Assembly: GCA_017474485.1 (NCBI GenBank) | Contig: JAFVHO010000189.1 | Coordinates: forward strand, 1 to 52,198 | DNA: 52,198 nucleotides | Direction of reading: 5' to 3' | Origin: Prevotella sp. | GTDB lineage: Bacteria > Bacteroidota > Bacteroidia > Bacteroidales > Bacteroidaceae | Part shown: piece by piece, positions 4,027 to 48,910 of the stretch | How positions within the stretch are numbered: position 1 is the first letter of the stretch | How the letters are laid out: each line of letters starts with the position of its first letter | Translations under genes and position numbers: made by a program | The notes under the pieces: model-generated | Told to the model about the DNA's origin: nothing | Databases searched by the model: none | Seen by the model: the letters and a program-made list of their open reading frames with translations, nothing else

Positions 4027-7000
4027 ATGTGGAACTTTAAAAAGTTACAGAAAACTTTGGCAGTGCTGTTCCTGCTCTGCATGATTCCTCTTGGGATGAA
4101 TGCTCAGATAGTCAAGGGAACAGTCAATGACGAGGCTGGAGAACCGATTATTGGTGCAACAGTCAAAGTACAGGGTAGCAATGAAGGCACGGTTACCGAT
4201 TTCGACGGTAATTTCAGCGTCAAAGCTTCCTCTAACGCCACACTGGTCATTTCCTACGTGGGTTACACAACCCAACAGGTGAAGGTTGGTGGCAAGAGTA
4301 ACATCACCGTTACCTTAGTTGAGGACAACACCACGTTGAACGATGTGGTCGTTATCGGTTATGGTGTTCAGAAGAAAAAGCTGGTGACGGGTGCCACTGT
4401 TCAGGTAAAGGGTGATGACATCGCCAAGCTGAACACCACCAATGCACTCGAGGCTATGCAGTCAAGCACGCCTGGTGTACAGATTACCCAGTCATCTTCA
4501 CAGCCTGGTAAGGGATACAAGGTTTACATCCGTGGTATCGGTACTACTGGTAATTCCAAACCTCTTTATGTGATTGATGGTGTTGCTGGTGGTGATCTTG
4601 ACGGTATCAACCCCAACGACATTGAAAGCATCGACATTTTGAAGGATGCTGCATCATCTGCTATCTATGGTGCCCGTGCTGCTAACGGTGTCATCCTGGT
4701 TACTACCAAGCAGGGTAAGGCAGGTAAAATTGAAGTTACCTATAATGGTTCTGTAGGTTGGTCGAACGCCTATAAGCGTCCTCAGCTCCTCAATGCACAG
4801 CAGTACATGACTATCATTGATGAGTATAGCTTCAATACTTCTGGTCAAAAGATGGATTGGGCTGGCTTCGTTCCTGCTGACATCCTTACCAAGGTTAATA
4901 GTGGTTGGGAAGGTACTGACTGGTGGGGCGCATTCGAAAACAAGAATGCTCTTCAGCAGAATCATTCTGTAACCTTAACTGGTGGTACAGACCGTTCTAA
5001 GTTTGCCATGTCTTACACCTATACTGGTAACGAAGGTATTATGGGTGCTGATATGGCTTCTTTCTACAAGCGCCACACCGTTCGTATCAACAGCGAGCAT
5101 GTGCTCTTGAAAGCAAAGGACTTCGATGCTATTACCATCGGTGAAAATATCTCTATCGGCTATAACAAGAGTCACGACTTGGCTGAGGATGGTATGTACT
5201 GGAGCTATATTCATAGCTTGCTCCAAACTTGTCCTCTCATGCCACAGTATGCTGAAAATGGTGACATCTATTATTATCAGACTCCTGACGCTGTAGGTAA
5301 TGTTGTTTATGGTCAAGGCTGGAACTCTTCATTGTTCAGCAACCCATGGGAGAACCTTTCAAAGGGTGGCTTCAACTCTAAGGCGGAGAGCCGTAACGTT
5401 AATACCAGTGCTACTGCTTTCATTACCATCCAGCCTATTAAGGGTCTGAGATTCCGTTCTCAGTTCAACTATAGCTGGGGTTCAGGTGCATATCGTAACT
5501 ATAATGAGCCACGTTCTACTGGTTATGGTAATGCTACATCAATTATTTATAGTGTTAACCAGAGTGCTTGGTTGAATACTAATTTCTCTATTGAAAACAC
5601 CCTCACATACGATCTTCCTATTATTGCTGGTCATAAGATCAGTGCCATGGTTGGTCAGAGCTTCCAGAGCACCGCTTGGAGCACAAATGTAGGTGGTTCT
5701 AACAAGGTTAATAACGGTGAGCAGCTTGCAACACTGAAGGGTTGGGATTCTGCATACCTGACTAACGTCAAACTGGTTAATGCTACCGATGCTACTCTGA
5801 CTGGCAAGCCCAATGATGAAGAGTATCTGGCTTCTTGGTTCGGTCGTTTGACATGGGACTGGAATGAGACCTACATGGCTACCTTTACCTTACGTCATGA
5901 TGGTTCAAGTATCTTCACAGACGGCAAGCGCTGGGGCACCTTCCCCTCTGCATCTGTAGGTTGGGTAGTTACCAATGAGAAGTTTATGGAGAGCACAAAG
6001 AGTTGGCTTGACTTCTTCAAGATTCGTGCATCTTGGGGTCAGAACGGTAACTGTTCTATCGATAAGTACCAGTATTTGGCAACCATCGCTCTGTCTGGTG
6101 AGGCTTACGACAGCGGTTACAAGTTTGCTTCTGATATGGCTACATCTGTTGCTGGTAGTCCTAATGTTGGTGCTTACGCTAACATCGTACCTAACCCCGA
6201 CCTGACTTGGGAAACTTCTGAGCAGCTTGACTTCGGTTTCGATGCTCGTTTCCTGAATAGCCGTTTAGGTTTAACCTTCGACTGGTATAAGAAGACTACT
6301 AAGGACTGGCTGATTACAGGTCCTCAGATTGCTATCAATGGTACCAATCCTGCAGCCATCAATGGTGGTGACGTAAAGAATACAGGTATTGAGATTGCTC
6401 TCTCATGGAATGACAGAGTTAATAAGGACTTCAGCTACAATGCAAGTGTAAACTTGGCTACCAATAAGAACGAAGTAACCCGTATCGCTAATGAGAATCA
6501 TTATATCAATGGTCCTAGTGGTGTGCTTTCACAGGGTACAGAATACTGCTACCGTGCTGAGGAAGGCAAGCCCATCGGTTATTTCTATGGCATGTCATAT
6601 AGCGGTATCTGGCAGAATCAGGCACAGATTGATGCTGCTAACGCAGAGTCACTGAAGCGTCATCCTGGACTTGAGAAAGCTACATGGGACGGTGCACAGC
6701 CTGGTGACTGCATCTGGGATGACTGGAACGATGATGGTGTAATTACCTATGCAGAGGGTTCTACATGTGACCGTCATGAGATTGGTAATCCTAACCCCGA
6801 CGTGATGCTGGGTATCAACCTTGGTTTGAACTGGAAGGGTATTGACTTCTCTGTAAACGGTGCTGGTGCATTTGGTCATCAGATCATGCGTTCTTACCGT
6901 TCATTCAGTGATGCACCCTATCAGAACTATGATACTTCGATTCTGGATCGTTGGTATGGTGAAGGCACCTCAAACGATCAGCCTCGTATCTCAAGTACAG

Positions 7001-7290
7001 GTCACCAGAACACGAACTGGGTATCAACTCGTTACATGGAAGATGCTGACTACTTCAAGATTAAGACTATTACGCTGGGTTACGACTTTAAGAATCTTTG
7101 GAAGTCTTGCCCATTCCAGCAGCTTCGTCTCTATGTTCAGGCACAAAACCTCCATACATTCACCAAGTACAAGGGCCTCGATCCTGAGGTAGGTAACAAT
7201 GCTGGTGGTAGTGGCTGGGCATCTGGTATTGACCTGGGTCTTTACCCAAGCGCTCGTACTTATCTGATTGGTGCAAGTATTAAATTCTAA
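4027..7290 (+). CDS. SusC-like TonB-dependent outer-membrane transporter
   Basis: SusC proteins import oligosaccharides across the outer membrane using TonB energy. The 1087-residue protein has a signal peptide ending GMNAQ. A carboxypeptidase-regulatory-like domain follows (residues about 28-105, VKGTVNDEAGEPIIGATV to VGYTTQQV). A TonB-box-like stretch (LNDVVVIGYGVQ) comes next. The plug domain includes the SusC-typical VYIRGIGTTGNSKPLYVIDG and SAIYGARAANGVILVTTK. The rest is a long beta-barrel ending in an outer-membrane-type phenylalanine (GASIKF). Length is usual for SusC. The SusD gene follows after 15 bases. Xylan fragments as substrate are inferred from the surrounding enzymes. Confidence 0.96.
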   Translation: MWNFKKLQKTLAVLFLLCMIPLGMNAQIVKGTVNDEAGEPIIGATVKVQGSNEGTVTDFDGNFSVKASSNATLVISYVGYTTQQVKVGGKSNITVTLVEDNTTLNDVVVIGYGVQKKKLVTGATVQVKGDDIAKLNTTNALEAMQSSTPGVQITQSSSQPGKGYKVYIRGIGTTGNSKPLYVIDGVAGGDLDGINPNDIESIDILKDAASSAIYGARAANGVILVTTKQGKAGKIEVTYNGSVGWSNAYKRPQLLNAQQYMTIIDEYSFNTSGQKMDWAGFVPADILTKVNSGWEGTDWWGAFENKNALQQNHSVTLTGGTDRSKFAMSYTYTGNEGIMGADMASFYKRHTVRINSEHVLLKAKDFDAITIGENISIGYNKSHDLAEDGMYWSYIHSLLQTCPLMPQYAENGDIYYYQTPDAVGNVVYGQGWNSSLFSNPWENLSKGGFNSKAESRNVNTSATAFITIQPIKGLRFRSQFNYSWGSGAYRNYNEPRSTGYGNATSIIYSVNQSAWLNTNFSIENTLTYDLPIIAGHKISAMVGQSFQSTAWSTNVGGSNKVNNGEQLATLKGWDSAYLTNVKLVNATDATLTGKPNDEEYLASWFGRLTWDWNETYMATFTLRHDGSSIFTDGKRWGTFPSASVGWVVTNEKFMESTKSWLDFFKIRASWGQNGNCSIDKYQYLATIALSGEAYDSGYKFASDMATSVAGSPNVGAYANIVPNPDLTWETSEQLDFGFDARFLNSRLGLTFDWYKKTTKDWLITGPQIAINGTNPAAINGGDVKNTGIEIALSWNDRVNKDFSYNASVNLATNKNEVTRIANENHYINGPSGVLSQGTEYCYRAEEGKPIGYFYGMSYSGIWQNQAQIDAANAESLKRHPGLEKATWDGAQPGDCIWDDWNDDGVITYAEGSTCDRHEIGNPNPDVMLGINLGLNWKGIDFSVNGAGAFGHQIMRSYRSFSDAPYQNYDTSILDRWYGEGTSNDQPRISSTGHQNTNWVSTRYMEDADYFKIKTITLGYDFKNLWKSCPFQQLRLYVQAQNLHTFTKYKGLDPEVGNNAGGSGWASGIDLGLYPSARTYLIGASIKF

Positions 7291-7305
7291 TTCGACAATT
7301 AAGTT

Positions 7306-9213
7306 ATGAAGAAATATATTTTATCAGCATTAGTTGTTTCGTCAGCAACTTTGTTTACAGCTTGTAACGACATGCTGGATACAGATCCGCGTGTGACTGA
7401 TCTGACCGCAGCTACTTTCCCTGGTAAGCCTGCCGATGTTGAGGCACTGAATGCGGGTACCTATAGTATTATGAATACGTTAGGTGGCGGAGATCAAAGT
7501 GGTATATTAAATAATCCTTTCTACTGGTGGTCGCTCATGTCAGATGACTGCTTCGGTAGTGGTGGTTTGCAAGACAATGTCGCAAAGTCACTGCATCATT
7601 TTACAACGGCAAGTGCTAACCAGTACGAGCAGGATTTCATCCTTCTGTATGGTGGTATCTCACGTGCCAACAACCAGATTGAGACCATCGACAATGTGAA
7701 ATGGACTGACGCTCAGAAGGCTCAGCGTAATCAGCTTCTTGGTGAGGGCTACTTTATGCGTGGTTTCTACACCCTCTTGCTTACCCAGATGTATGGCGAT
7801 GTACCTCTGATTACTTCTACTACTATTACTGATGCGATGCAGGAAGAGAAAAGTGCAGAGACGGATGTATATCCACAGATCCTCTCTGACTTTGTTTCTG
7901 CCAAGAATCTTATGAAGGCAGAACGTGCTAATGGTTCAGGCCATGCTGACAAGTACACTGCTGAAGCATTTATTGCACGTGCATGGATGTTCTGGGCAGG
8001 TTTCTATAAAGGAGTTCGTGAGCTTGCTTCTGGAGATGCTTCTATGGATCTTGTAGCTCAGGAGGGTTGCGCAGAAGGTACAAAATTGGCAAAGGCTGAT
8101 GTCGTTGCCGCACTGAAGGATGTCATTAACAATGGTGGTTACAAGCTTTGCGAGGACTTCCGTTCACTCTGGCAGTATTCTAACAGTTTGCTTTGGGATG
8201 AGGCACACGACGGTAAAGGTCATGCATATGAATTCATTGCAGACATGAAACGTGAAAACTGCTTCGACCAGCCTGGTATGGGTAATGGTAACACTGAGGA
8301 GATTTTCCAGATTCAGTTTATGAATGCTTCTAAGTGGGCTATCGGTGGTACTTATAACAACCCACGTATGTATTCAAACTATCTATCTTGCTTCTGGGGA
8401 CTTCGTAATGGTGCTACCAATGATAATGGTAAGCGTGACAAGACATATCCATTCAACCAAGGTTGGGGTCAGGGTACTCCTTCAAACAACCTGTGGGATG
8501 ACTGGACAGATGCTGAAAGAACAGGCGGCTATACCGACATTCGTAAACTTGGTACTTTGATTGACCTCGAAAATGAGCTTGCAGCTTATACTTACGAGAA
8601 AGACGACTGTGAGGAGTCTGGCTATGGTGTTAAGAAGTATGCCGATGTAAACCTCGATGCTTGTGCTGCAGATAACGATTCTTGGTGGAGTAAGGCTCCT
8701 GGTTATACCAGCAGCTCGCTTGACAATAAGCAGCAGGGTGACCACTTCGAGGACTACTACCTGATGCGTTATGCTGACGTTCTTCTGATGATGACCGAGC
8801 TCACTGGTGATCCTCAGTACATGAACCAAGTGCAGAAGCGTGCTGGTGTTCCTCAGACAGGATACTCTTTGACAGCCGTTCAGAACGAGCGTCGTTGGGA
8901 GTTTGCATTAGAAGGTCTTCGTTTCAACGATATGCGTCGTTGGTCTGGAGCAGATGGCCACAGCGAGAGCTCATACGCTGCTAAGGCTCTCCAAGCTCAG
9001 AAGGGTAAGCAGATTGTATGCCTTGGTCAGAAGGGAGCTAAGCGCAGTATGGAGCACATGACATGTTCTTGGTCTAAGCGTTATGCCGATACCAAGGGCT
9101 TCTTGCCGAAGCCTCAGGCTCAGATTACTCTGATGAACAATAAGATGAAGCAAAACGCAGGCTGGGATGAAAATGCATCTGCGACAGAGTACACATATAA
9201 AGTTCTTTATTAA
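7306..9213 (+). CDS. SusD-like glycan-binding outer-membrane lipoprotein
   Basis: SusD proteins form a lid over SusC and bind the incoming glycan. The 635-residue product begins with a lipoprotein signal peptide whose lipobox cysteine is in LFTACND. The SusD N-terminal region includes FYWWSLMSDDCF and the TPR-like LLGEGYFMRGFYTLLLTQMYGDVPLI. The C-terminal RagB/SusD region contains YYLMRYADVLLMMTEL and NERRWEFALEGLRFNDMRRW, a hallmark of the family. It is somewhat longer than many SusD proteins. It pairs with the SusC gene 15 bases upstream and is followed 19 bases later by another lipoprotein gene. Confidence 0.96.
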   Translation: MKKYILSALVVSSATLFTACNDMLDTDPRVTDLTAATFPGKPADVEALNAGTYSIMNTLGGGDQSGILNNPFYWWSLMSDDCFGSGGLQDNVAKSLHHFTTASANQYEQDFILLYGGISRANNQIETIDNVKWTDAQKAQRNQLLGEGYFMRGFYTLLLTQMYGDVPLITSTTITDAMQEEKSAETDVYPQILSDFVSAKNLMKAERANGSGHADKYTAEAFIARAWMFWAGFYKGVRELASGDASMDLVAQEGCAEGTKLAKADVVAALKDVINNGGYKLCEDFRSLWQYSNSLLWDEAHDGKGHAYEFIADMKRENCFDQPGMGNGNTEEIFQIQFMNASKWAIGGTYNNPRMYSNYLSCFWGLRNGATNDNGKRDKTYPFNQGWGQGTPSNNLWDDWTDAERTGGYTDIRKLGTLIDLENELAAYTYEKDDCEESGYGVKKYADVNLDACAADNDSWWSKAPGYTSSSLDNKQQGDHFEDYYLMRYADVLLMMTELTGDPQYMNQVQKRAGVPQTGYSLTAVQNERRWEFALEGLRFNDMRRWSGADGHSESSYAAKALQAQKGKQIVCLGQKGAKRSMEHMTCSWSKRYADTKGFLPKPQAQITLMNNKMKQNAGWDENASATEYTYKVLY

Positions 9214-9232
9214 ATTTAATTAAGTAAACAAT

Positions 9233-9997
9233 ATGAAAAAGATATTATTTTTGCTCGTTGCCGCAGTATGTTCTTTTGCAGCTTGCAATCCTACTCATGA
9301 GGATATTGGCAATGCTGGACACATCTCTATCGACGAGCTCATAGCAAAGACAACTGTCACTGTTGACAAGACAGCAGACGGTACGAAGAATGGTAACGTC
9401 GTTTACTGCCAGACCTCAGCTCCGGTCAATGCTAAGTGGAATATCGGTGGTAAGGAGTTTATTGGTAACTATGCATGGAAGAAGATGAAGGTTAATTGGA
9501 ATCAGAATGGTGATTACGTTAAGACTCCATATACCATTGTTCTCACTGCTCTTTGCCCAGACGGAACCCAGCTTAAAGCTGAATTCCCTATCGAATGTGA
9601 CGATGTCACTAATCCTCTTACAAAGTACTATATCTATGGTGATCCTTCAAAGCCAGAAGAAGCACCATTCAAGCCCGGTGCTTGGGATGCAGCAGCTATG
9701 CGTTTCAGCTCTACTGAAGGTGCACACCTGCCCACGATCTCCGATGATATCTACTATGGTCTCAAGACCTTGATTTTTGACGTGTCAGATGTTACTGCTG
9801 ATTTCGATTTGAAGGTCATGAACGGTTGGTGGAGTAACACCTATTACGATCATGTGAAGTGGACGTCAGGTTTGAATGAACTTCAGATTACTGAGACTAT
9901 GGCTAAGGAGTGCGCAAAGGGTGGTGAAGGCCGTGACCTCGACCTCATGCTTTACAGCGGTTCTATGACTCTCAACGCTGTTTACTATGAAGAATAG
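9233..9997 (+). CDS. Lipoprotein at the SusE position, probable surface glycan-binding protein
   Basis: The 254-residue product starts with a lipoprotein signal (MKKILFLLVAAVCSFAAC, Cys18). I recognise no catalytic motif. The mature part is rich in aromatic residues (AWKKMKVNWNQNG, NGWWSNTYYDHVKW) and looks like two beta-sandwich-like segments: one before about residue 130 resembling a PKD/Ig-type domain, and one after it. Its place directly after susD, in the same direction and 19 bases downstream, is where SusE/SusF-type surface glycan-binding proteins are usually encoded. Binding of xylan or arabinoxylan is therefore inference from position and composition. Confidence 0.7.
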   Translation: MKKILFLLVAAVCSFAACNPTHEDIGNAGHISIDELIAKTTVTVDKTADGTKNGNVVYCQTSAPVNAKWNIGGKEFIGNYAWKKMKVNWNQNGDYVKTPYTIVLTALCPDGTQLKAEFPIECDDVTNPLTKYYIYGDPSKPEEAPFKPGAWDAAAMRFSSTEGAHLPTISDDIYYGLKTLIFDVSDVTADFDLKVMNGWWSNTYYDHVKWTSGLNELQITETMAKECAKGGEGRDLDLMLYSGSMTLNAVYYEE

Positions 9998-10044
9998 TAG
10001 TTTCTGATATGTATAATATGTATAATATTAAAACATCTGTTATA

Positions 10045-11313
10045 ATGAAAAGTTTTTTGAATTATAGTAAGCTCGCAATCGCCATGCTTATTACATCAAG
10101 TGTATTTGTGGCTTGTAGCGATGAGATTACCGAAAATTCTGTCGATATCCAATACACAGCGAATACAAGCAATATCAAAAGTGCAGGACAAGCTGTGGAT
10201 TTAGGCCTCCCAAGTGGAACAAAGTGGGCCAATATGAATGTTGGAGCAACTTCAGAATCTGACAATGGTATTCTCTTCGTTTGGGGTGATATCACTGGAA
10301 CTCAGCTTCTGGCATCTACACCTACATCATATTTGGATGTGACTTCAGCTACATCTGTATCTGATTTGTTTGATTTGTACAAAGGAGCAGAAGTGAAGGT
10401 TGGAACGATTTGTGATACAACAAATATTACTAAGATTGTTGAACCTAAGCTTATTGACTTAACGTTTATAGGTGATACGACTCAATTGGATTCTGCATCA
10501 CGAGCTGCGATTGATTATCTGAAGATGACAGCCATTAATGCTTTCGTATTGGCTAAGTTGACTGATGCCGTTGATAAGGGCAATACAGGTTTCCTTGAGG
10601 CAACACTTACCAATGAAGACTTTACTCTCATTATTGATTGGGATGGTTCTCAGTTTATTGAGAGATTCCCCAAGCAGAACTCAGCTAAGGATACATTAGA
10701 CTATTTCAAGAAGTTTGAATACGCAAGTGTTTCAACTTTCGTTTTAGACAAGATGGGTTCTACTGATGTCAATTATTATGAAGCTCCTAAAGCTAATAAT
10801 TATGATGAAATTAAAGATCAGTTAGGTGTTGTAATGCGTAAAGACTATAAGGGTGGTGATATTGCTGGATCTCCTATTTATAGTATTATTGCAGACGCAA
10901 ACCATGATCCTGCTACTGCAAATTGGGGCAACAACTGGGTAATGCCAACAACTGCACAAGTCCAGGAGCTGATTGATAACTGCAAGTGGGAGTTTACTGG
11001 TAATGGCTATAGAGTGACTTCTAAAAAGGAAGGAAACAATAACAGTATCTTCTTGCCTGCTGCTGGTTATCGCTTCGGAGATAAGTGGTACGGAAACGGA
11101 AATGCTGGCTATTATGCTACAGGAGAGATCTTAGGAACTTATCATTTCCCCTCAATGTTAGAGCAGAAGAATGAATCAAAGGGAAGTGTTAGCGGTAATG
11201 ATAACATGCCAAACATATTGGTTTTCCAGAATGGTAAGTTTGATAATTCTATGGGTATCTACAACAACTTGAGTTCTAGTTTCGGTGTTTCTATCAGACC
11301 CGTTGCTAAGTAA
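10045..11313 (+). CDS. Lipoprotein with a split FISUMP-type domain
   Basis: ATG codons occur at 10009, 10018 and 10045. The last gives a proper lipoprotein signal (MKSFLNYSKLAIAMLITSSV, then FVACSDE), so I choose it (422 residues). Residues about 50-85 contain DLGLPSGTKWANMNVGAT and WGDI. Residues about 285-420 contain ANWGNNWVMPTTAQVQELI, FLPAAGYRFGDKWYGNG and a terminal VSIRPV. These are the two halves of the Fibrobacter-succinogenes-major-paralog-like (FISUMP) domain, common in Bacteroidota surface proteins. Between them is an insertion of roughly 170-200 residues with no recognised fold. It is the fourth gene of the SusC operon, directly before a terminator, so a surface substrate-binding role is plausible but unproven. 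Confidence 0.72.
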   Translation: MKSFLNYSKLAIAMLITSSVFVACSDEITENSVDIQYTANTSNIKSAGQAVDLGLPSGTKWANMNVGATSESDNGILFVWGDITGTQLLASTPTSYLDVTSATSVSDLFDLYKGAEVKVGTICDTTNITKIVEPKLIDLTFIGDTTQLDSASRAAIDYLKMTAINAFVLAKLTDAVDKGNTGFLEATLTNEDFTLIIDWDGSQFIERFPKQNSAKDTLDYFKKFEYASVSTFVLDKMGSTDVNYYEAPKANNYDEIKDQLGVVMRKDYKGGDIAGSPIYSIIADANHDPATANWGNNWVMPTTAQVQELIDNCKWEFTGNGYRVTSKKEGNNNSIFLPAAGYRFGDKWYGNGNAGYYATGEILGTYHFPSMLEQKNESKGSVSGNDNMPNILVFQNGKFDNSMGIYNNLSSSFGVSIRPVAK

Positions 11314-12101: not shown

Positions 12102-12133
12102 TTTGGCTGTTTGGGAGAAAATGCTTAACTTTG
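12102..12133 (+). promoter_or_regulatory. Promoter of the membrane-protein/propeller module
   Basis: TTTG at 12102-12105 and TAACTTTG at 12126-12133 are separated by 20 bases, a full match to the Bacteroidota -33/-7 promoter. It lies 30 bases upstream of the ATG at 12164, outside the foldback element. Confidence 0.75.
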
Positions 12134-12163: not shown

Positions 12164-13939
12164 ATGAATAACAAGAGTAAAGTATCTGGTGCAATCCTCT
12201 GTGTAAGTCTGTTGGCTTTCATAGTGTTTGTCGTATATTTGTTATACATCAACCAAGAAGTGTTCTATACTGCACATGACCGTTCTGAATTCGTCTTCGG
12301 AGCGCCCTTCTTTCATACGCTGATGTCGAAACCCTTTGGCCTGATGCAGTATGTGGGGGCCTGGCTGACGCAGCTTTTTGTTGAGCCGACTGTAGGTTCA
12401 GTTGTGTTAGTGGCCATCTGGACACTGATCTTCTATGTAGGTACCAAAGCGTTCAAGTTACAGGGTAGTGCTTCAGCCTTGATGCTCTTGCCTGTTGCCT
12501 GTCTGCTTACATCGGTGACCGATTTGGGTTACTGGATTTATATCTCCACCATCAGAGGTTATTGGTTCTCGCAGTCGGTAGGTTATCTGATTATGTTGTT
12601 GCTCTTGTGGGCTGCACGCCAGACACCTCGCAAATGGCATCTGGCTTGGTATCTGTTTGGCGTTTGTATCTATCCGGTTCTTGGATGGTTTGCTTTACTT
12701 TTCGTTATATGTCTTGCACTGGTTGAGAAACCCACATGGCGTGAGCTCCTAGGGTTAGTTCTACTCATCTTTACCGCCAGCATCTGGCATACGCAGTTCT
12801 ATTCGAATTTGAAAGCTGACGATGTCGTGATGGCGGGCTTTCCGCGTTTCGAAACACCCAGCGACAGTAGCCCGCATCTTTCTATCCCGTTCTGGGTACT
12901 TGGTGCCGTCTCTGTACTTATTCCGGTGTGCGGTCGTTATCTTGCTAAGGCATTTGTACCCATTATTTGTGTCGTTGCAGGTGTTGCTTTTACTTGGTCG
13001 TTGATGTACCAAGACAAGAACTATGTCGACGAAATGCGTATGGTGCGTTATGCTGAAAACGACAACTGGAAGGAAGTTCTGGCTATAGCTGAAGACAATA
13101 AGGCGCCAACCAGTACGATGGTATTTCTTAAGAATATAGCCTTGATGAACGAAGGAGGTCTGTTCGAGCGTTCGTTCAAATTGCGCAACGACGCTGTCAG
13201 TATTAACAACCCTGATACGCTTCATGTTACCCTTTTGGATATAGCATCACCTCTCGTATATTACAACTATGGTATGATGAATGAAGCTATCCGCCTGAAT
13301 TTTGAAAATGCCATACAAGCAGGCTTCTCACCGTTCTATCTGAAGATGCTTTCCCGTTGCGCCTTAGCTGTAGGGGATAAAAAACTGGTAGAACGATATA
13401 CTACGATATTGCATCATAGCCCGTTTTATGGCGATTGGCAACCTGCTCCAGTTACAGCGAAGATCAAGGAACTACAAAAATGCTATCCCGATGAGATTAC
13501 TGGTGTTGAGAACAGCGACAGTTATATTGTCAATGGCATCAGCCTCTGGTACGAATCTGATAGTAAAGTGGCTTCAGAACAGGCATTGTTCTATGCCATG
13601 ATGCGTTGTGATTCACGTCGATTCTGGCCAGCATTGCGTAACTATGTTAAACTTCACCTTGAAGAGCAATTCCCATTGCATGCTATGGAGGCATATATTC
13701 TGTACGTAGATAAGGCTCCTGAAGAAAAACGTATGATGCTCCCTGTTGAACAGTCTGTATACGAGCGTTACAAAAAGTTCTGGGCAACTCTGGAAAGTAA
13801 GGCAAAGCCTGGTATGACAATTGAAAAGGTTGGTGAAGAAATGCGTGAAGAATTTGGAGACACCTATTGGTGGTACAACATATTTGGAAGAAAACCTATT
13901 TATGTAAATGCTGGAATTGGTCACGAAGTAGCATCATAA
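12164..13939 (+). CDS. Multi-spanning membrane protein, probable DUF6057 family, copy 1
   Basis: The 591-residue product has an N-terminal half with many hydrophobic segments (for example SGAILCVSLLAFIVFVVYLL, TVGSVVLVAIWTLIFYV, LLGLVLLIFTASIW and FVPIICVVAGVAFTWSLMY). It then has a soluble C-terminal half of about 300 residues with helical, TPR-like pairs (WKEVLAIAEDN, NEAIRLNFENAIQAGFSPFYLKMLSRCAL). I believe this is the DUF6057 family, from memory. No enzymatic motif is visible. It starts a module: the propeller lipoprotein gene follows after 6 bases, and the same pair is repeated at 15480-18373. A strong promoter lies just upstream. The function is unknown. The tail probably faces the cytoplasm or periplasm as a protein-interaction platform. 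Confidence 0.72.
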   Translation: MNNKSKVSGAILCVSLLAFIVFVVYLLYINQEVFYTAHDRSEFVFGAPFFHTLMSKPFGLMQYVGAWLTQLFVEPTVGSVVLVAIWTLIFYVGTKAFKLQGSASALMLLPVACLLTSVTDLGYWIYISTIRGYWFSQSVGYLIMLLLLWAARQTPRKWHLAWYLFGVCIYPVLGWFALLFVICLALVEKPTWRELLGLVLLIFTASIWHTQFYSNLKADDVVMAGFPRFETPSDSSPHLSIPFWVLGAVSVLIPVCGRYLAKAFVPIICVVAGVAFTWSLMYQDKNYVDEMRMVRYAENDNWKEVLAIAEDNKAPTSTMVFLKNIALMNEGGLFERSFKLRNDAVSINNPDTLHVTLLDIASPLVYYNYGMMNEAIRLNFENAIQAGFSPFYLKMLSRCALAVGDKKLVERYTTILHHSPFYGDWQPAPVTAKIKELQKCYPDEITGVENSDSYIVNGISLWYESDSKVASEQALFYAMMRCDSRRFWPALRNYVKLHLEEQFPLHAMEAYILYVDKAPEEKRMMLPVEQSVYERYKKFWATLESKAKPGMTIEKVGEEMREEFGDTYWWYNIFGRKPIYVNAGIGHEVAS

Positions 13940-13945
13940 GTAAAA

Positions 13946-15460
13946 ATGAAAAGATATATCCATTATTATTTACAGCTTTGGGCTGTTGCGACGATGCTAT
14001 TGTCATCGTGTGTGAGTCATCCTGATGTGCCTTCTTCGTCCAAAGAGGCCAAGTGCTTGCCTGCCATCTTCCCCGATTATTGCGATGTTACAGTGCCTTG
14101 TAATATTGCACCACTAAACTTCATGCTTCCTGCTGACCAGTACGAAACGTGTGTAGCACGTTTTACCACGCCTGATGGCCTGCAGCAGACTTACGGCCAT
14201 GGTGTGAAGGTGCAGATACCCGAGGAAGAATGGAATACCATGCTTGATGCCTCAAAAGGTAAGAGCATCAAGGTTGAGGTTTGGGGACAAAAGGACGACG
14301 AGTGGTTGTCGTTCACCCCGTTTGAGATACATATAGCTCCGGACCGCATTGATGAATACCTGTCATATCGCCTCATCGAGCCATCGTATGTGGCATGGAC
14401 CTTCATGGAGATTGCCCAGCGTAACCTCACCACATTCGAAGAGACTCAGATTTTCAACAACGAGATTACGATGAACGACAGGGCGAAAGGCCAGTGTATC
14501 AACTGTCACAGTTATCAGAACTATAAGACCGACAATATGCTTTTTCATGTGCGTCTCTCCAATGCCGGTACCGTGATTGTAAACGATGGTAAGGTTTCGA
14601 GAGTCAATATGAAGCGCGACTATACCATCTCTGGAGGTGTTTATCCGGCATGGCATCCAACCGCCAAGCTGATAGCCTTCTCGACAAACAAGACGCGTCA
14701 GGCATTCCATACGCAAAATCCTAACAAGATTGAGGTTTACGATCTGGCCAGTGACATGATTCTCTATGATGTGGAGACTGACTCGGTGAGCATCGTTAGC
14801 AATGATTCCACGCTGTTGGAGGTGTATCCAACCTGGTCGCCCGATGGCAAATACCTCTATTACTGTAAGTCTGTGCCACTTCCCGAGGAGATGCGCGACA
14901 AGGATATCAGAACAACGTACCCGAAAATACAATACAACCTCTATCGTCGTTCATTTGACGTGGCTACGCATAACTTCGGTGACGAGGAACTCGTCTATGA
15001 TGCCGCTTCATCCGATAAAAGCGTCACTTTGCCACGCATCAGCCCCGATGGGCGTTATCTGCTGTTTGCCTTGGGCCAGTACGGTTGTTTCCATAGCAGG
15101 CACCACGATGCTGACATTGTTTGTATTCCGATGGAACAATACACGGGAACTGCCCTTACTGCGGAAACAGTTTCTGCCGTCGACCTGAGGCTTGTCAACA
15201 GCAAGGACTATTCCGACAGCTATCCTTCTTGGTCGAGCAACGGTCATTGGATCATGCTTGCCAGCCGTCGTGACGATGATAACTACAGTCGTGTCTATTT
15301 CGCTTATTTCAACAACGGAAAAGTGGAAAAGGCCTTTATGCTGCCGCAGGAAGACCCGGAATACAACACCTTCCTGCTGAAGAGCTATAACCGACCGGAG
15401 TTCATGATTGAGCCTGTTAAGATTAGTGTCGATGAGTTCAGCAAGGTGTTTGACAAATAA
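13946..15460 (+). CDS. TolB-like (PD40) beta-propeller lipoprotein with CxxCH motif, copy 1
   Basis: The 504-residue protein has a lipoprotein signal ending LLSSC. A conserved N-terminal region follows (FPDYCDVTVPCNIAPLNFML). Residues 184-188 read CINCH, a haem-c attachment motif, followed by a downstream Met and His (NMLFHVR) also conserved in the second copy. PD40/WD40-like propeller blades follow: YPAWHPTAKLIAFSTNK, YPTWSPDGKYLYYCKS, LPRISPDGRYLLFALG and YPSWSSNGHWIMLASRRDD. Such proteins are often annotated as TolB-like or as cytochrome c biogenesis proteins. Whether haem is really bound is not shown. The gene starts 6 bases after the membrane-protein gene, implying a joint function at the cell envelope. 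Confidence 0.78.
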   Translation: MKRYIHYYLQLWAVATMLLSSCVSHPDVPSSSKEAKCLPAIFPDYCDVTVPCNIAPLNFMLPADQYETCVARFTTPDGLQQTYGHGVKVQIPEEEWNTMLDASKGKSIKVEVWGQKDDEWLSFTPFEIHIAPDRIDEYLSYRLIEPSYVAWTFMEIAQRNLTTFEETQIFNNEITMNDRAKGQCINCHSYQNYKTDNMLFHVRLSNAGTVIVNDGKVSRVNMKRDYTISGGVYPAWHPTAKLIAFSTNKTRQAFHTQNPNKIEVYDLASDMILYDVETDSVSIVSNDSTLLEVYPTWSPDGKYLYYCKSVPLPEEMRDKDIRTTYPKIQYNLYRRSFDVATHNFGDEELVYDAASSDKSVTLPRISPDGRYLLFALGQYGCFHSRHHDADIVCIPMEQYTGTALTAETVSAVDLRLVNSKDYSDSYPSWSSNGHWIMLASRRDDDNYSRVYFAYFNNGKVEKAFMLPQEDPEYNTFLLKSYNRPEFMIEPVKISVDEFSKVFDK

Positions 15461-15479
15461 AAGAAGATAAAAGTAAAAA

Positions 15480-16868
15480 ATGAAAGCTGGCAATAGTAAT
15501 AAGGAACAAGGGGTGAAAAAAGTTTTTTTACCTTTTTACCTCCTTACTTTTTTTTGTGGCTGTCCTCCTCTTCTTCGGATTAGCCTATCCGCATCATCTG
15601 CATTATCAAGAGCAGTATCAACTGTTTCTCTTTGATAGCACTTATGTGTTGGAGATTGTGAAGCTGCCAGGTGGCATAGCCGACCTGTTGGGACGCTTCT
15701 GTACCCAGTTTTTCCTATATGCATGGGTGGGAGCGTTGATGATTGCAATCCTACTTTCGTTGGTGCAATTGCTGATGCTCAGATTGGTAAAGTGGGGGTG
15801 GCTATATGGTCTGAGTTTTGTACCTTCGTTCCTGCTCTGGTTATTCCTGCTCGATGAGAATGCGCTGTTAGGTGGCGTCTGGGCAGTCCTGCTTACGCTT
15901 CTCGCCATTTGTGGCTTTATGCTGGTGCCAAAAGGGTGGGGACGACGTATCGCAATTCTGGTCATCATTCCTATTCTATACTGGATGGTGGGGCCCGCAT
16001 GGAGTGGAAGCCATTACCATCGCTACCCGACGGTAACACCTTATCTGCTATATGTTGCATGGCTGTCTGCCGTCATCCTCCCACTTATGGTCCATTTTAT
16101 CAAGGTTCAAGATTTGAAGTTTAAGGTTCAAGGTTTAACCTTCCTATTGGTGGCAGTTGTCATGGGTACGATAGTCTGGAAGAACGCCAATTTAAGGCAG
16201 AAAAGGTCATGCAGTATGACTTTATGGCGCGCCACCAGCAGTGGAATCGCATCCTTCAGGTCATCAATGCAGAGAAACCCAACAACCAGATTGGCGTGAC
16301 CGTCCAGAATCTGGCCTTGGCGATGCACGGCATGCTCCTGGAGCATATGTCCGACTATCACCAGAACGACATCGCGGGTCTGCTGCCTGATGTCAAGGAA
16401 GATGCCACCAGTCCATTGCCTACAGCCGAGGCGTTCTATTATCTAGGCATGATCAATGTCGCCCAGCGCACAGTTTTCGAGGCCCAGGAGGCCATCCTCG
16501 ACTTCCAGAAGAGTGGCCGATGCTATAAACGACTGGCACAGACAAACCTCATCAATGGTAACTACGAAGTGGCACGTAAATACCTCACGGCCTTACAAAA
16601 GACCCTCTTTTATCGCGGCTGGGCCAATGAGACACTACCACTGCTCGGCAATGAGAAGGCCATAGCAGCTCATCCCGAGTATGGGCACCTGCGCCAAAGC
16701 GCTTACAACGAGGATTTCTACTTCAGCGACCATGTGACGCCAGAAATGCTCGAGAGTCTCTACTTCAGAAATACTGATAATCGCCTGGCCTATCAATATC
16801 TCTTGGCCTACTATATGTTGACGGGTGACCGCGAAAGATTTAATCAATTCATGTCTGCTAAGCAATGA
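15480..16868 (+). pseudogene. Frameshifted second copy of the DUF6057-like membrane protein
   Basis: The reading frame that starts at ATG 15480 (MKAGNSNKEQGVKKVFLPFYLL) continues sensibly only after a +1 shift, probably in the T8 run at 15548-15555. The frame from 15556 then carries the membrane segments (VAVLLFFGLAYPHHLHY and onwards). A second shift between about 16165 and 16185 moves to the frame encoding EERQFKAEKVMQYDFMARHQ, which corresponds to the soluble half of copy 1 (VRYAENDNWKEVLAIAE). The end overlaps the next start by ATGA at 16865-16868. Either this copy is decayed or the sequence has two indel errors. A short word repeat at 16101-16141 inserts KVQDLKFKVQGL just before the second break. 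Confidence 0.75.
16101..16141 (+). repeat. AAGGTTCAAG-type word repeat
   Basis: Variants of AAGGTTCAAG and TTTGAAGTTT are strung together within the broken membrane-protein gene, encoding KVQDLKFKVQGLT. Its proximity to a frameshift suggests slippage-prone DNA. Confidence 0.6.
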
Positions 16869-18373
16869 GAAAAATCGTTTATTGTTTATTGTTTATTGTT
16901 TATTGTTTTGCCGCTTGTACCGAGACCGTCAGTGATGCCAAGCAGGAGACAGGTCAGCCCCAGATATACCCCGACTACATCGGTGTTACCATACCCGTGA
17001 ATATTGCTCCTCTGAACTTTAGTATGGCCGACGAGACGGTAGTTAATGGTCAATGGTCAATGGTCAATGGTCAATGTCAGTGCATCGATGCGGTTGTCAC
17101 TGACCGCCACGGAAACAGCCTGCATAGCCAGGGTGAGGAATCCGTCGACTTCGACATTGACGATTGGCATCAGATGCTGGCCCAGAACGCTGGCGACTCG
17201 CTTAGTGTGACCGTTTCGGCCAAGTATGACGACGGGTGGCATACCTATAGTCCCTTTTCCATCTATGTCAGTCCCGACAGTATCGACTACGGTCTCTGCT
17301 ACCGCCTGATAGCGCCGGGCTATGAGGTGTGGAGCAAGATGGGCATCTACGAGCGCGACCTCTCCTCGTTCGATGAGCGTGCGCTGATTGAGAACACACA
17401 GTTTGAGGGTTGTGTCAACTGCCATAGCTTCAATCGTGGTAACTCTGTCGATATGAGTTTGCATATCCGTGGCCCGCACGGAGCCACACTGTTGCGTCAC
17501 GGCGACAGACCGCTTACCGCCTATAACACCAAGACCCCACAGACCCTTGGCCTCTGTGTCTATCCCTACTGGCATCCCTCGGGTCGCTATATCGCCTATT
17601 CCACCAACAGCACGAGACAGTTGTTCCATAGTGCTCATGGTAACCGTATCGAGGTCTTCGACGAAGCCTCCGACCTTCAGGTCTATGATGTCGAGAAAAA
17701 TGAGTTGATTCTTTCGCCTATTTTGAAGCAGGACTCCATCTACGAGACCTACCCAGTCTTTTCAGCCGATGGCCGTTCGCTCTATTTCTGTGCTGCAGAG
17801 GCCCTTCCAGAGGGTAGTCATGCGCTGGACTCCATCCGCTATAATCTCTACCGCATTGATTTCAATCCTGCAACGGGCACTTTTGGCAACCGCATAGACA
17901 TCATTGTTGATGCCGCAACCCTGCACAAGTCGGTGTCTTTCCCTCGTCCTTCCTACGATGGCCGTTTCCTTTGTTATACACTGTCTGATTACGGCCAGTT
18001 CAGCATCTGGCACCATGAGGCCGACCTTTATCTGTTAGACCTCGCTACAGGTGAGAGCCGACCTATGGATGGAGCTAACTCTGATGATACAGAATCGTTC
18101 CATAACTGGAGCACCAACTCCCGTTGGCTCGTACTGAGCTCACGTCGTGACGATGGACTCTATACACGTCCTTATTTCTGTCATGTCGATGCTGATGGTC
18201 GGGTCAGCAAGGCCTTTATGCTGCCTCAGCGCAATCCACGCCGTTTCTATCGTGACCGTTTCCTGTCTTTCAACGTGCCCGATTTCATCATTGCCCCGAC
18301 TCGTTTTGATGGTCGTGATGCCAGCCGCATCATCAACGATGCCTCACGCAAAGACTTTGGCGTGCGCAAATAA
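16865..18373 (+). CDS. TolB-like (PD40) beta-propeller lipoprotein with CxxCH motif, copy 2
   Basis: The 502-residue paralogue of the 13946 gene has a lipoprotein signal (MRKIVYCLLFIVYCFAAC). It keeps the same N-terminal signature (IYPDYIGVTIPVNIAPLNF). The haem-type motif CVNCH is at residues 183-187, followed by a conserved Met and His (DMSLHIRG). Propeller blades include YPYWHPSGRYIAYSTNS, YPVFSADGRSLYFC, FPRPSYDGRFLCYTLS and WSTNSRWLVLSSRRDDG. The start overlaps the preceding stop by ATGA, implying translational coupling to the broken membrane-protein copy. Two short repeats enter the coding region: TTTATTG units in the signal peptide and TCAATGG units near residues 60-72. It is the last + strand gene before a convergent operon. 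Confidence 0.78.
   Translation: MRKIVYCLLFIVYCFAACTETVSDAKQETGQPQIYPDYIGVTIPVNIAPLNFSMADETVVNGQWSMVNGQCQCIDAVVTDRHGNSLHSQGEESVDFDIDDWHQMLAQNAGDSLSVTVSAKYDDGWHTYSPFSIYVSPDSIDYGLCYRLIAPGYEVWSKMGIYERDLSSFDERALIENTQFEGCVNCHSFNRGNSVDMSLHIRGPHGATLLRHGDRPLTAYNTKTPQTLGLCVYPYWHPSGRYIAYSTNSTRQLFHSAHGNRIEVFDEASDLQVYDVEKNELILSPILKQDSIYETYPVFSADGRSLYFCAAEALPEGSHALDSIRYNLYRIDFNPATGTFGNRIDIIVDAATLHKSVSFPRPSYDGRFLCYTLSDYGQFSIWHHEADLYLLDLATGESRPMDGANSDDTESFHNWSTNSRWLVLSSRRDDGLYTRPYFCHVDADGRVSKAFMLPQRNPRRFYRDRFLSFNVPDFIIAPTRFDGRDASRIINDASRKDFGVRK
16876..16909 (+). repeat. TTTATTG tandem repeat in a signal-peptide coding region
   Basis: About four GTTTATT units code for the hydrophobic core (IVYCLLFIVYCF) of the lipoprotein signal peptide. 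Confidence 0.75.
17042..17078 (+). repeat. TCAATGG 7-bp tandem repeat inside a coding region
   Basis: About four and a half copies of GGTCAAT encode VNGQWSMVNGQ in the copy-2 propeller protein; copy 1 lacks this segment. A 7-bp unit would shift the frame if the copy number changed. Confidence 0.8.
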
Positions 18374-18402: not shown

Positions 18403-19647
<1,245 letters not shown>

Positions 19648-19663
19648 TTACCTTTTTCATTTT

Positions 19664-22018
19664 TTACCTTTTCAACAGGTTCAGTTTCACATTGGGTTTC
19701 ATCACATTGTTCACCTTCTTGGTCCAGGCTTTCACTTTGGCAGTAGCTTGTGCCTCGATGTCGTTGGCAGAAGAACAAATCAGGAAGGTATAGACACCTG
19801 CGTCGGTTTTCCAAGCAGACGCCTTTTCATTGAACGAGGCGAGGTCTTCAGCCTTTACCGTCATCGTAATGGTCTCTGTCTGTCCAGTTCTCAGCAGACG
19901 GGTCTTGGCATAGTTGCGCAGTTCCTTCTCAGGCTTGTTCAGCTTCTTACTGTTGGGCGCTGCCACGAAGAGCTCTACCACATTACGACCAGGACGATGA
20001 CCGGTATTCTTCACGTCCACCTTCACGGTATATATGCCGTCAGCCTCTGTGACGTTCATGTTCTCATAGGCGAAAGTGGTGTAGCTGAGTCCATAGCCGA
20101 AGGGATAGGCCACTGGTTTGCCGAACGAGTCGAAGTAACGGTAACCAACGTAGATATCCTCTTCGTAGTTGGTGAAATCGATGTTGGCCTCAGGCTTACG
20201 CTCCTTAGGAGCCTTGTCCTTGTCATAGCCCCACATAAACATCGCGCCAAGGGTCTTGTCGTCGACGTTGGCGGGGAAGTTCTTGTCGGCATAGGCATCA
20301 CCGTATTTGATTTGGAAGGTCATCGGCAGTTTGCCAGAAGGATTTACACGTCCGCTGAGCACGTCGGCCACAGAAAAACCACTCTCCTGACCGCCCTGCC
20401 ACGTGCAGACGAGAGCGTCAATCTGATTCTGCCACGAAGCCACGTCGATAGGACTGCAGATGTCGAGCAGCATCACGACCTTCTTGCCCTTGGCATGATA
20501 AGCTTCGCTGACGGCTTTGATGAGCTGTTTTTCGCTGTCCTTCAGGTAGAAGTCGGCCTCGCTGCGGTCGGCAGCCTCACCACTCTTACGACCTAATGAG
20601 ATGATGGCAACATCACTTTCATTGACGGCAGCATTGAGCTCGTCAGCCGTAAACTGCTTCTCGTCAGCGCGGGCTGGAGGCAGCAGTGAGAAGAGCGGAC
20701 GACCATCAGGGAACAGACGCTTTTCCTCGGCAGCGAGGTGCTGCGTGTATGTAGCAATTAGCGGCTTGTACACCTCGTAACCTACACTGCGCAATCCTTC
20801 AACCAACGACACGGTATAGTGACCTATGCTAGTACCACCGAAGCCGGAACCACCGGAAATCCAGTCGTAACTGGTGCATCCGAACAACGCTACGCGCTTG
20901 CCCGTCAGAGGTAAAGTGCCGCTGTTCTTCAATAGCACGATACCATCGGCACCAACCTCGCGAACCACCTGTGCGTGCACTTTCAGGTTTGGCTCGCTGT
21001 TATATTTGTAGCCTTTGAATGTGTTGGTCTTGACCACATATTCCAATATGCGCTTGACGTTGGCGTCGAGCACCTCCATCGGCAGCGTGCCGCTCTTGGC
21101 AGCAGTCAGGATGGCCTCATATTGCTTGGGTTGTCCGGGCTGCAGCATGTCATTGCCAGCCAGCATCGCCGCCACAGCATCGTCCCCAGCATTCCAGTCG
21201 CTGACATACATACCCTTCCAACCCCACTCATCGCGAACGATGGTAGTCAGCAGTTCGTAGTTCTGCACGGCATAAGGACCGTTCAGTTTGTTATATGATG
21301 TCATGATGGTCCACGGGTCGCTCTCCTTCACCATAATCTCAAAGGCCTTCAGGTATATCTCACGCAGTGCACGCTGTGACACCTGTGAGATGTTTTTATT
21401 GCGGTTCGTCTCTTGGTTGTTTGCCACGAAATGTTTGGGACAAGCCGCCGTGCCCTCGCTCTGCACACCTTTTACATAGCCAGCAGCGATGGTGCCAGAG
21501 AGGTATGGGTCCTCTGAGTAGTATTCATGGTTACGTCCGCACAACGGATTGCGGATGAGGTTCATTGCCGGAGAGAGAATCCAGTCGAGTCCGAACTCAC
21601 GAACCTCGTTGCCGATGCCTTGTCCAATTTTGAACGCAGCTTCTCGGTCCCAGGTAGAAGCCAGCGTCGGCGAGGCCACGAAATCGGTGGGATAATAGTC
21701 ACGATGGTCCCATACGCGCTTGGCATTCATGCGCAATCCCTGTTGCGAATCAGCACAATAGGTCTCAGGGATGCCCAATCGCTCCACGCCGAACGAGCTG
21801 CCCGCTGTACCAGGGAATTTGTCATCATCATTATAGTGCATGCCGGTTCCTAATACGAAGTGGCACTTCTCCTCCAGCGTCATCGCCTTGACAATTTCGT
21901 CGATGTTGCCAGCCGTGAGCTTTTGGGCCGAAGCAGATAAAGGTAAAAGGGTTAAAAGGTAAAAAGGTAAAACACCTTTTCCCCACCCCCAAACCTTTAA
22001 TAATAATTCTTTCTTCAT
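19664..22018 (-). CDS. GH3 beta-glucosidase/beta-xylosidase family enzyme
   Basis: The 784-residue GH3 protein has a signal peptide (ending LPLSASAQ). Its N-terminal barrel domain contains NLIRNPLCGRNHEYYSEDP, CPKHFVANNQETNR and the nucleophile motif MYVSDWNAGDD (Asp about 274). The second alpha/beta domain contains VALFGCTSYDW, and a C-terminal fibronectin-III-like domain contains YPFGYGLSYTTF. Removal of xylose or glucose from non-reducing ends is the family role. The adjacent GH3 at 22059 has exactly the same length and the same module order, so the pair arose by duplication. Their differences suggest distinct linkages or locations. Part of the signal peptide comes from GGTAAAA-type repeats. 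Confidence 0.9.
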   Translation of the reverse strand: MKKELLLKVWGWGKGVLPFYLLTLLPLSASAQKLTAGNIDEIVKAMTLEEKCHFVLGTGMHYNDDDKFPGTAGSSFGVERLGIPETYCADSQQGLRMNAKRVWDHRDYYPTDFVASPTLASTWDREAAFKIGQGIGNEVREFGLDWILSPAMNLIRNPLCGRNHEYYSEDPYLSGTIAAGYVKGVQSEGTAACPKHFVANNQETNRNKNISQVSQRALREIYLKAFEIMVKESDPWTIMTSYNKLNGPYAVQNYELLTTIVRDEWGWKGMYVSDWNAGDDAVAAMLAGNDMLQPGQPKQYEAILTAAKSGTLPMEVLDANVKRILEYVVKTNTFKGYKYNSEPNLKVHAQVVREVGADGIVLLKNSGTLPLTGKRVALFGCTSYDWISGGSGFGGTSIGHYTVSLVEGLRSVGYEVYKPLIATYTQHLAAEEKRLFPDGRPLFSLLPPARADEKQFTADELNAAVNESDVAIISLGRKSGEAADRSEADFYLKDSEKQLIKAVSEAYHAKGKKVVMLLDICSPIDVASWQNQIDALVCTWQGGQESGFSVADVLSGRVNPSGKLPMTFQIKYGDAYADKNFPANVDDKTLGAMFMWGYDKDKAPKERKPEANIDFTNYEEDIYVGYRYFDSFGKPVAYPFGYGLSYTTFAYENMNVTEADGIYTVKVDVKNTGHRPGRNVVELFVAAPNSKKLNKPEKELRNYAKTRLLRTGQTETITMTVKAEDLASFNEKASAWKTDAGVYTFLICSSANDIEAQATAKVKAWTKKVNNVMKPNVKLNLLKR
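21940..21980 (-). repeat. GGTAAAA word repeat at the start of the GH3 gene
   Basis: Repeated AGGTAAAA units encode part of the signal peptide (VLPFYLLTLLPL on the minus strand). Related runs of TTTTTACC lie at 19640-19672 and 22030-22070, in the two gaps of the same operon, and near 15520-15556. Confidence 0.65.
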
Positions 22019-47809: not shown

Positions 47810-48910
47810 ATGAAAGAAACGTTATTATTTATTATTTGTTCTTTATTATTTAGTCCTGCAGGGGCGCAAGGACTGAAGGACGCTATTGGGAAGTACTGCC
47901 TGATTGGTGCTGCTGTCAACCAGTGGCAGAGCGACGGACAGGTACCTGAAGCCGATGCCGTACTTGACAAGCATTTTAATTGTGCTGTGGCTGAGAATTG
48001 CATGAAGCCCGAGTCGCTGGCGCCTGCCGAGGGCATCTTCGACTTCCGTGTGGCCGACAAGTTCGTCAGCTATTGCGAACAGCACAACCTGAAAGTCATT
48101 GGTCACTGTCTGGTGTGGCATTCGCAGGCTCCCGACTGGTGGTTTACTAATGGCTACACGGCTTCACCCGCCTCAAAGGAAGTACTGAAAGCACGCATCA
48201 TCAAGCACATCAAGACCGTTGTAGGCCACTTCAAGGGCCAGGTTCATGGTTGGGATGTCGTGAATGAGGCTATCAATGATGACGGATCGTTCCGCAACTC
48301 CCCATACTACCGTCTGCTGGGCGAGGAGTTCATCGAGATAGCTTTCCGTACAGCCCACGAGGCCGACCCCGACGCTGAGCTCTACTATAATGACTACTCG
48401 ATGGCTGGCGAAAAAAAGCGTGAGGCCGTGTGCCGTCTTGTCAGGAACCTGAAGGCTAAGGGACTTCGCATCGATGGAGTAGGCATGCAGAGTCACAATG
48501 GTCTCGACTATCCTAACCTTGACGAGTACGAAAAGAGTATTGATGCTTTTGCCGCGTGCGGTGTGAAAGTGATGATGACTGAGCTCGACATCAACGTGCT
48601 GCCCAACCCGGAGGGCTTTGGTGGTGCTGATATCGCCCAGAATTTCCAGTTGCAACAGAAATATAACCCATACGTTGACGGACTGACTAAAGACAAGCAG
48701 AAGGAACTTGATGCACGTTGGCTGGCACTATTCAAAATCTATTATAAGCATCGTGCACAAATCAGTCGTATCAATCTGTGGGGCGTCAGCGACGCAGGTT
48801 CGTGGCTTAATGGCTGGCCTGTCAAGGGGCGCACCAACTATCCGTTGCTCTTCGACCGTCAGTACAAGGAGAAACCCGTGATTAACGAAATTATCAAACT
48901 TTATAAATAA
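47810..48910 (+). CDS. xynA: GH10 endo-1,4-beta-xylanase
   Basis: An in-frame TTG start at 47783 is possible, but the ATG at 47810 gives a clean signal peptide (MKETLLFIICSLLFSPAGAQ), so the product is 366 residues. The single GH10 barrel shows CAVAENCMKPESLAP, HCLVWHSQAPDWWF, the acid/base WDVVNEAIND (Glu153) and the nucleophile MTELDINVL (Glu258), then INLWGVSDAGSWLNGWP. Length is usual for a GH10 catalytic domain with no binding module. It lies 78 bases after the permease gene with a stem-loop between. Periplasmic cleavage of imported xylan fragments is expected, complementing the GH10-CE1 protein. Confidence 0.93.
   Translation: MKETLLFIICSLLFSPAGAQGLKDAIGKYCLIGAAVNQWQSDGQVPEADAVLDKHFNCAVAENCMKPESLAPAEGIFDFRVADKFVSYCEQHNLKVIGHCLVWHSQAPDWWFTNGYTASPASKEVLKARIIKHIKTVVGHFKGQVHGWDVVNEAINDDGSFRNSPYYRLLGEEFIEIAFRTAHEADPDAELYYNDYSMAGEKKREAVCRLVRNLKAKGLRIDGVGMQSHNGLDYPNLDEYEKSIDAFAACGVKVMMTELDINVLPNPEGFGGADIAQNFQLQQKYNPYVDGLTKDKQKELDARWLALFKIYYKHRAQISRINLWGVSDAGSWLNGWPVKGRTNYPLLFDRQYKEKPVINEIIKLYK

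Follow-up and report, generated by a model that had tools for sequence, protein, structure and literature searches.

What is the gene module that lies between a set of SusC- and SusD-like genes and an esterase gene in this Prevotella genome, and do its parts belong together? The window, which is the whole stretch of 52,198 nucleotides analysed here, is contig C56 of a 2.98-Mb metagenome-assembled genome (MAG) that is 73% complete and divided into 236 contigs. It holds two versions, copies A and B, of a gene pair encoding a membrane protein of the DUF6057 family (PF19529) and a beta-propeller lipoprotein with a PD40 match (PF07676) and a CxNCH motif. Sequence comparison across genomes points to a conserved envelope module of two proteins, both of known fold, in which DUF6057 and the propeller are kept adjacent under purifying selection.

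Copy A is intact. Its DUF6057 gene (591 amino acids, 12164-13939, forward strand, as are all module features given here; 244.5 bits to PF19529) is followed after a six-base gap by propeller A (504 amino acids, 13946-15460), with the motif CINCH at residues 184-188 (14495-14509). Propeller B (502 amino acids, 16865-18373), which is also intact, carries CVNCH at 17411-17425 and has an ATGA overlap with the frame upstream. That frame is one of two into which the copy B DUF6057 gene is split: an N-terminal open frame at 15517-16299, with the first usable start listed at 15556 (152.4 bits), and a C-terminal piece in another frame at 16125-16868 (254.8 bits, 2.8e-75). Both pieces, like copy A, score above the curated PF19529 cut-off of 29.8 bits. 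A sequence-only reading had described this order, the spacing and the CxNCH motif in both propellers, and the coordinates agree with it. Its two gene pairs hold for copy A and for the propeller of copy B, whereas the second membrane protein is not intact in this assembly.

The pairing of DUF6057 with the propeller is real. We examined 60 genomes of the genus and 149 of the order, scoring at most 26 (genus) or 10 (order) propeller candidates per genome. In the genus the propeller occurs in 34 of the 60 genomes, usually beside DUF6057 and at up to seven places per genome. All 116 propeller matches were compared with 113 DUF6057 matches among the matches listed, where a split match was entered by its first piece and matches to the C terminus alone were omitted; on this basis 105 of the 116 have a same-strand DUF6057 gene no more than 400 bases away, and of the remaining 11 several fall at a contig end, consist of a fragment or miss the 400-base limit by little. 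By hand count in the order sample, with the window's genome left aside, 29 of 36 propeller matches adjoin DUF6057 and 29 of 34 strong DUF6057 matches adjoin a propeller. The sequence-only reading had named random association of the pair as the outcome that would count against it, and these numbers do not bear that out. The unpaired DUF6057 matches of the order are G114:C88, G089:C97, G167:C7, one in G070 near a contig end and a partial one at G164:C79; an unpaired propeller is also present in each of G114, G089 and G167, so these genomes retain the two partners although they are not adjacent. Four loci (L092, L095, L106 and L141) have the opposite gene order, and beyond the class the pair is present in genomes G285 and G246. 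Searches of plasmid records with tblastn gave matches in Parabacteroides distasonis (three records), Phocaeicola massiliensis (two) and Bacteroides fragilis (one), with DUF6057 adjoining a propeller in each P. distasonis record; the B. fragilis record has the two side by side as open frames.

Compared with a related locus (L109), the ratio of nonsynonymous to synonymous substitution rates (dN/dS) is 0.115 for DUF6057 A, 0.090 for propeller A and 0.072 for propeller B; values of 0.07-0.12 point to purifying selection. The two propellers of the window are only 37% identical to each other, and in three other genomes propeller A has orthologues at 72-87% identity and propeller B at 73-82%. Recent tandem duplication is thus ruled out, and the earlier description of the module as duplicated is misleading. 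Judged by their sequences, copies A and B are old paralogues.

When the copy B DUF6057 gene is aligned with the orthologous regions of eight relatives, the first frame change falls at a T-run and TTTTTACC octamer array (15525-15553) just before 15556; array and T-run replace the start present in the relatives, and the upstream ATG and GTG are thus out of frame. The second break is a single base missing between 16193 and 16194, a site covered by seven relatives. These two breaks exclude an intact copy B gene in this assembly. The same region is open in five relatives (L107-L110 and L112), split in L111, interrupted by an N run in L114 and cut by the contig end in L113. The broken pieces have dN/dS of 0.14 and 0.09 against L109, and values this low suggest that the damage is either recent or an assembly error; given the incomplete and fragmented MAG, the breaks may be real or artefactual.

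What kind of protein is DUF6057? The structural model of copy A (predicted local distance difference test score, pLDDT, 86.6; predicted template modelling score, pTM, 0.87) has a membrane half to about residue 281 and a helical solenoid at 285-575. This fits the earlier description of a multi-spanning protein with a TPR-like soluble half, which for copy B meets a broken gene. The model predicts a GT-C-like membrane half joined to a TPR-like solenoid, and models together with loop charges place the solenoid, tentatively, in the periplasm. Enzymes of the GT-C fold use polyprenyl-phosphate carriers as donors of the group they transfer, at the outer face of the membrane, and by definition their first outer loop has a conserved acidic residue. 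In DUF6057, residues 36-42 include at least one aspartate or glutamate in 45 of 48 proteins, with no invariant column. A sequence-profile link to GT-C was sought with hhalign and not found: the comparison with ten PMT_2-type proteins (those usable, under a simple frame rule, from 24 fetched loci) gave 10% probability, against 1% for a control family. DUF6057 differs from the GT-C glycosyltransferases (Pmt1/2/4, STT3, ArnT, AftD, EmbB) in that no such link was found, in having no invariant acidic residue, and in its C-terminal helical solenoid. Against solved structures the DUF6057 profile reached a best E of 0.016.

Matches to PF19529 under the cut-off in genomes of the order and phylum were taken as chance; among ten that we read, the long frames resemble mixed membrane proteins, and in four a wrong or short frame had been chosen. 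Separately, many genomes of the genus, module-less ones included, hold frames of about 360-460 amino acids whose match to the DUF6057 profile is confined to its final 100-120 positions (for example G004:C1:379098-379415 and G016:C1:1634632-1634964); these form a separate family.

The window proteins do not differ from the PF19529 family, which has no stated function. In the open-licence PubMed Central (PMC) literature we found no function for DUF6057 and nothing on PD40 proteins tied to Prevotella membrane proteins or polysaccharide utilization, on CXXCH in beta-propeller lipoproteins of Bacteroidetes or, of relevance, on a chorismatase with a cytochrome in Bacteroidetes. These searches turned up no described function for the module; DUF6057 and PD40 are themselves known families.

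The model of propeller A (pLDDT 94.1) has a TolB-like fold. Its lipid-bearing cysteine is invariant in 59 of 59 propellers, and we asked on which side of the envelope the protein would lie. In the available part of PMC5080379, an acidic export signal after the lipid cysteine is given as the mark of surface lipoproteins in the phylum. The propellers do not carry it: positions +2 to +7 hold a mean of 0.93 acidic residues, with at least two in 10 of the 59, and the K/Q-(D/E)2 form of the signal occurs in 0 of 59. Under a looser lipobox rule, 56 of 80 propellers have a lipobox and the mean is 0.66. Neighbouring SusD proteins, by comparison, have a mean of 2.1, with at least two in 26 of 30 (34 looked at). 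Lacking the signal, the propellers probably face the periplasm. The earlier proposal of an envelope complex with a surface or periplasmic sensor is the natural reading as to the complex, and a surface sensor is rejected as unsupported, the export signal being absent.

Could the pair be a TolB-like device, in which the propeller bridges the membranes, DUF6057 is its inner-membrane partner and the function is envelope integrity? The predicted fold is TolB-like. Unlike TolB, the propellers are lipid-anchored, carry CxNCH and have DUF6057 as partner, and they score 30.9 and 20.7 bits on the TolB equivalog model, far under its cut-off of 343.15. We consider this explanation very unlikely.

All 64 propellers checked for the CxNCH motif have it, in the same proteins that carry the lipid cysteine; these 64 come from the earlier set of loci fetched for carrying DUF6057. 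A CxxCH in an exported protein is what is expected of a c-type cytochrome, and it is present here. The distribution of cytochrome c maturation (PF01578) could have spoken against haem c and does not. In the order it occurs in 15 of 15 module genomes versus 104 of 134 others (p 0.04); in the genus, in 19 of 19 near-complete genomes with the module versus 11 of 13 without (p 0.16), and in 29 of 34 versus 18 of 26 at any completeness (p 0.21); completeness is 56-85% in the five module genomes that lack it. The contrast is weak. In the model of propeller A, CINCH sits in a strand (183-191), whereas the motif of c-type cytochromes is normally on a helix, and no cytochrome family was found in the propellers at E up to 1. 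These two points speak against an ordinary haem site. Haem at CxNCH is plausible, with the balance about even; should haem be bound there, the placement of the motif in a propeller strand would make the site an unusual one.

A further gene, outside the window, is the tightest new lead on the module. It encodes a chorismatase-like protein with C-terminal PF01042 that recurs near the module, adjoining it at L103, L104, L105 and L165 and separated by one small gene at L166. The protein resembles FkbO/Hyg5 chorismatases: a ten-member profile matches 5ag3 at 1.5e-39 and FkbO (4bps) at 1.9e-27, and the alignment takes in the C-terminal VCR..L.EIEG stretch. It differs from them in scoring far under the TIGR04444 cut-off (40-49 bits in three members scanned, versus 325). 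It co-occurs with the module, by p values that ignore relatedness: 28 of 34 module genomes versus 2 of 26 others in the genus (p 7.5e-9), 18 of 19 versus 2 of 13 among near-complete genus genomes (p 6.6e-6), and 14 of 15 versus 5 of 134 in the order (p 1.0e-14; sample with family labels to f119). Here G001 (a stop-holding fragment), G131 (a weak match) and G190 (a fragment) were scored as module-less, and the broken or partial genes of G118, G081 and G011 as present. The sole module genome of the order without the gene is the window's own.

At L154-L158 and L173 the chorismatase-like gene lies directly behind a CcsBA-cluster gene, in an operon whose scanned cluster members are imelysin, a di-haem oxidoreductase and ResB/CcsA. 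At these loci, at L176 and L177 and on contig C24 of the window's genome (G000), an unnamed gene of 450 amino acids accompanies imelysin and the di-haem oxidoreductase, with CcsBA in most and the chorismatase-like gene often last; on C24 the operon is present and the chorismatase-like gene was not detected. The di-haem oxidoreductase family, which is about as frequent (17 of 149 genomes), occurs in 6 of 15 module genomes versus 11 of 134 others (p 0.002). The module is thus not linked to any patchy redox gene alike, as this overlap, though above chance, is smaller than that of the chorismatase-like gene.

Based on these observations, we propose a mechanism in which the periplasmic solenoid of DUF6057 would hold the propeller lipoprotein, and DUF6057 would act at the inner membrane, either as a transferase or as a scaffold that evolved from one. 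The partner may be recognised or switched via the CxNCH centre, in the simplest form a c-type haem attached by CcsA/CcsBA, and the chorismatase-like enzyme may supply an aromatic compound that the module uses or handles. As a whole this transferase-plus-CxNCH mechanism is tentative; it is our best guess, at less than an even chance. Its most novel version, an undescribed three-part Bacteroidota pathway, is unlikely as it stands: the chorismatase-like enzyme would make an aromatic compound inside the cell, a GT-C-type membrane transferase with a periplasmic TPR-like arm would carry outward either that compound or a group linked to a carrier, and a TolB-like lipoprotein, its CxNCH lying in a strand as an unusual site for haem c or a metal, would receive or control it. 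Alternatively, the propeller may be the c-type cytochrome in a chain for electron transfer or iron handling in the envelope that works with the imelysin/di-haem oxidoreductase/CcsBA operon, DUF6057 being a mere anchor and assembly scaffold. Counter to this, the motif sits in a strand rather than a helix, the propeller has no cytochrome domain, the di-haem oxidoreductase was not found in 9 of the 15 order module genomes, and the membrane half of DUF6057 has no conserved histidine or cysteine. We regard this chain as doubtful.

Another alternative starts from the genomic setting: an accessory pair for glycan uptake, with a periplasmic receptor and a membrane platform serving SusC/D loci, here of xylan type. 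Among 64 modules, from loci fetched for carrying DUF6057 and not drawn at random, SusC/D genes lie upstream of 20, counted on the same strand and no more than four genes away (15 of 41 modules in the genus and 5 of 23 beyond it), and downstream of 7, and the order SusC-SusD-lipoprotein-DUF6057-propeller is repeated in L107 and L109-L114. Against it, 44 modules have no upstream SusC/D genes (some hidden by locus or contig edges), other modules sit among housekeeping genes, and several orthologues have, by eye, their own promoter-like site or terminator-like hairpin before DUF6057. SusC/D loci are a frequent setting of the module, though not its main one; the upstream count rules it out as a part specific to a xylan locus, and the accessory role is very unlikely.

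In the window itself, the SusC- and SusD-like genes (4027-9213) and a third lipoprotein gene of 254 amino acids (set 4027-9997, forward strand) were assigned by cluster membership, with Pfam matches from cluster representatives and not the window genes. A gene of 434 amino acids (10009-11313) lies between them and the module; it has no trusted Pfam match, and its only relative among the fetched loci is in L109. Downstream of copy B are a convergent esterase gene (PF00756 match) and genes labelled GH3 in the sequence-only reading. The promoter that it reported, TTTG-N20-TAACTTTG, is present as a Bacteroidota-type promoter-like site before copy A (12102-12133, forward strand). The looser pattern TTTG-N19..21-TANNTTTG occurs three times in the window with both strands counted, and on average 0.2 times in 100 mononucleotide shuffles of the forward strand with one strand counted. 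Comparable sites precede this gene at L111, L113 and L114; the pattern was not found before the DUF6057 A orthologue in L107, L109, L110, L112 or L118. The window's genome seemingly holds a third module divided over two contigs: C135 (L087) has SusC, SusD, a lipoprotein gene and the start of DUF6057, C68 (L126) has the remaining DUF6057 and a propeller, and we infer that the two join into one module.

The window has tandem arrays with a repeat unit of 7 or 8 (or 16) bases at 229-264, 15525-15553, 16877-16908 (a GTTTATT array in the signal peptide of propeller B), 19636-19672, 21939-21972, 46098-46129 and 47822-47852. They fall at the starts of genes and in signal-peptide codons, positions at which slippage would change the reading frame. 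Repeats of seven bases occur within coding sequence too: in a variable part of DUF6057 B (16100-16138), in propeller B (17045-17076) and in the copy B regions of L109, L111 and L112. We counted 87 arrays of period 7, 8, 14 or 16 in 34 loci of the same genus (636 kb), with 28 within -30 to +80 of an open reading frame start versus 6.1 expected by coverage; 27 other loci (515 kb) hold 21, with 3 near starts versus 1.3 expected. It is possible that the start-site arrays reflect phase variation. Related heptamers near gene starts are described in the accessible part of PMC4679880, and the open-licence PMC literature held nothing further of relevance on Prevotella repeats with phase variation.

Looking across the entire analysis, two unknown families are tied together, with predicted folds, a likely side of the envelope, an invariant motif and a co-occurring enzyme, and may now be considered as one testable system.
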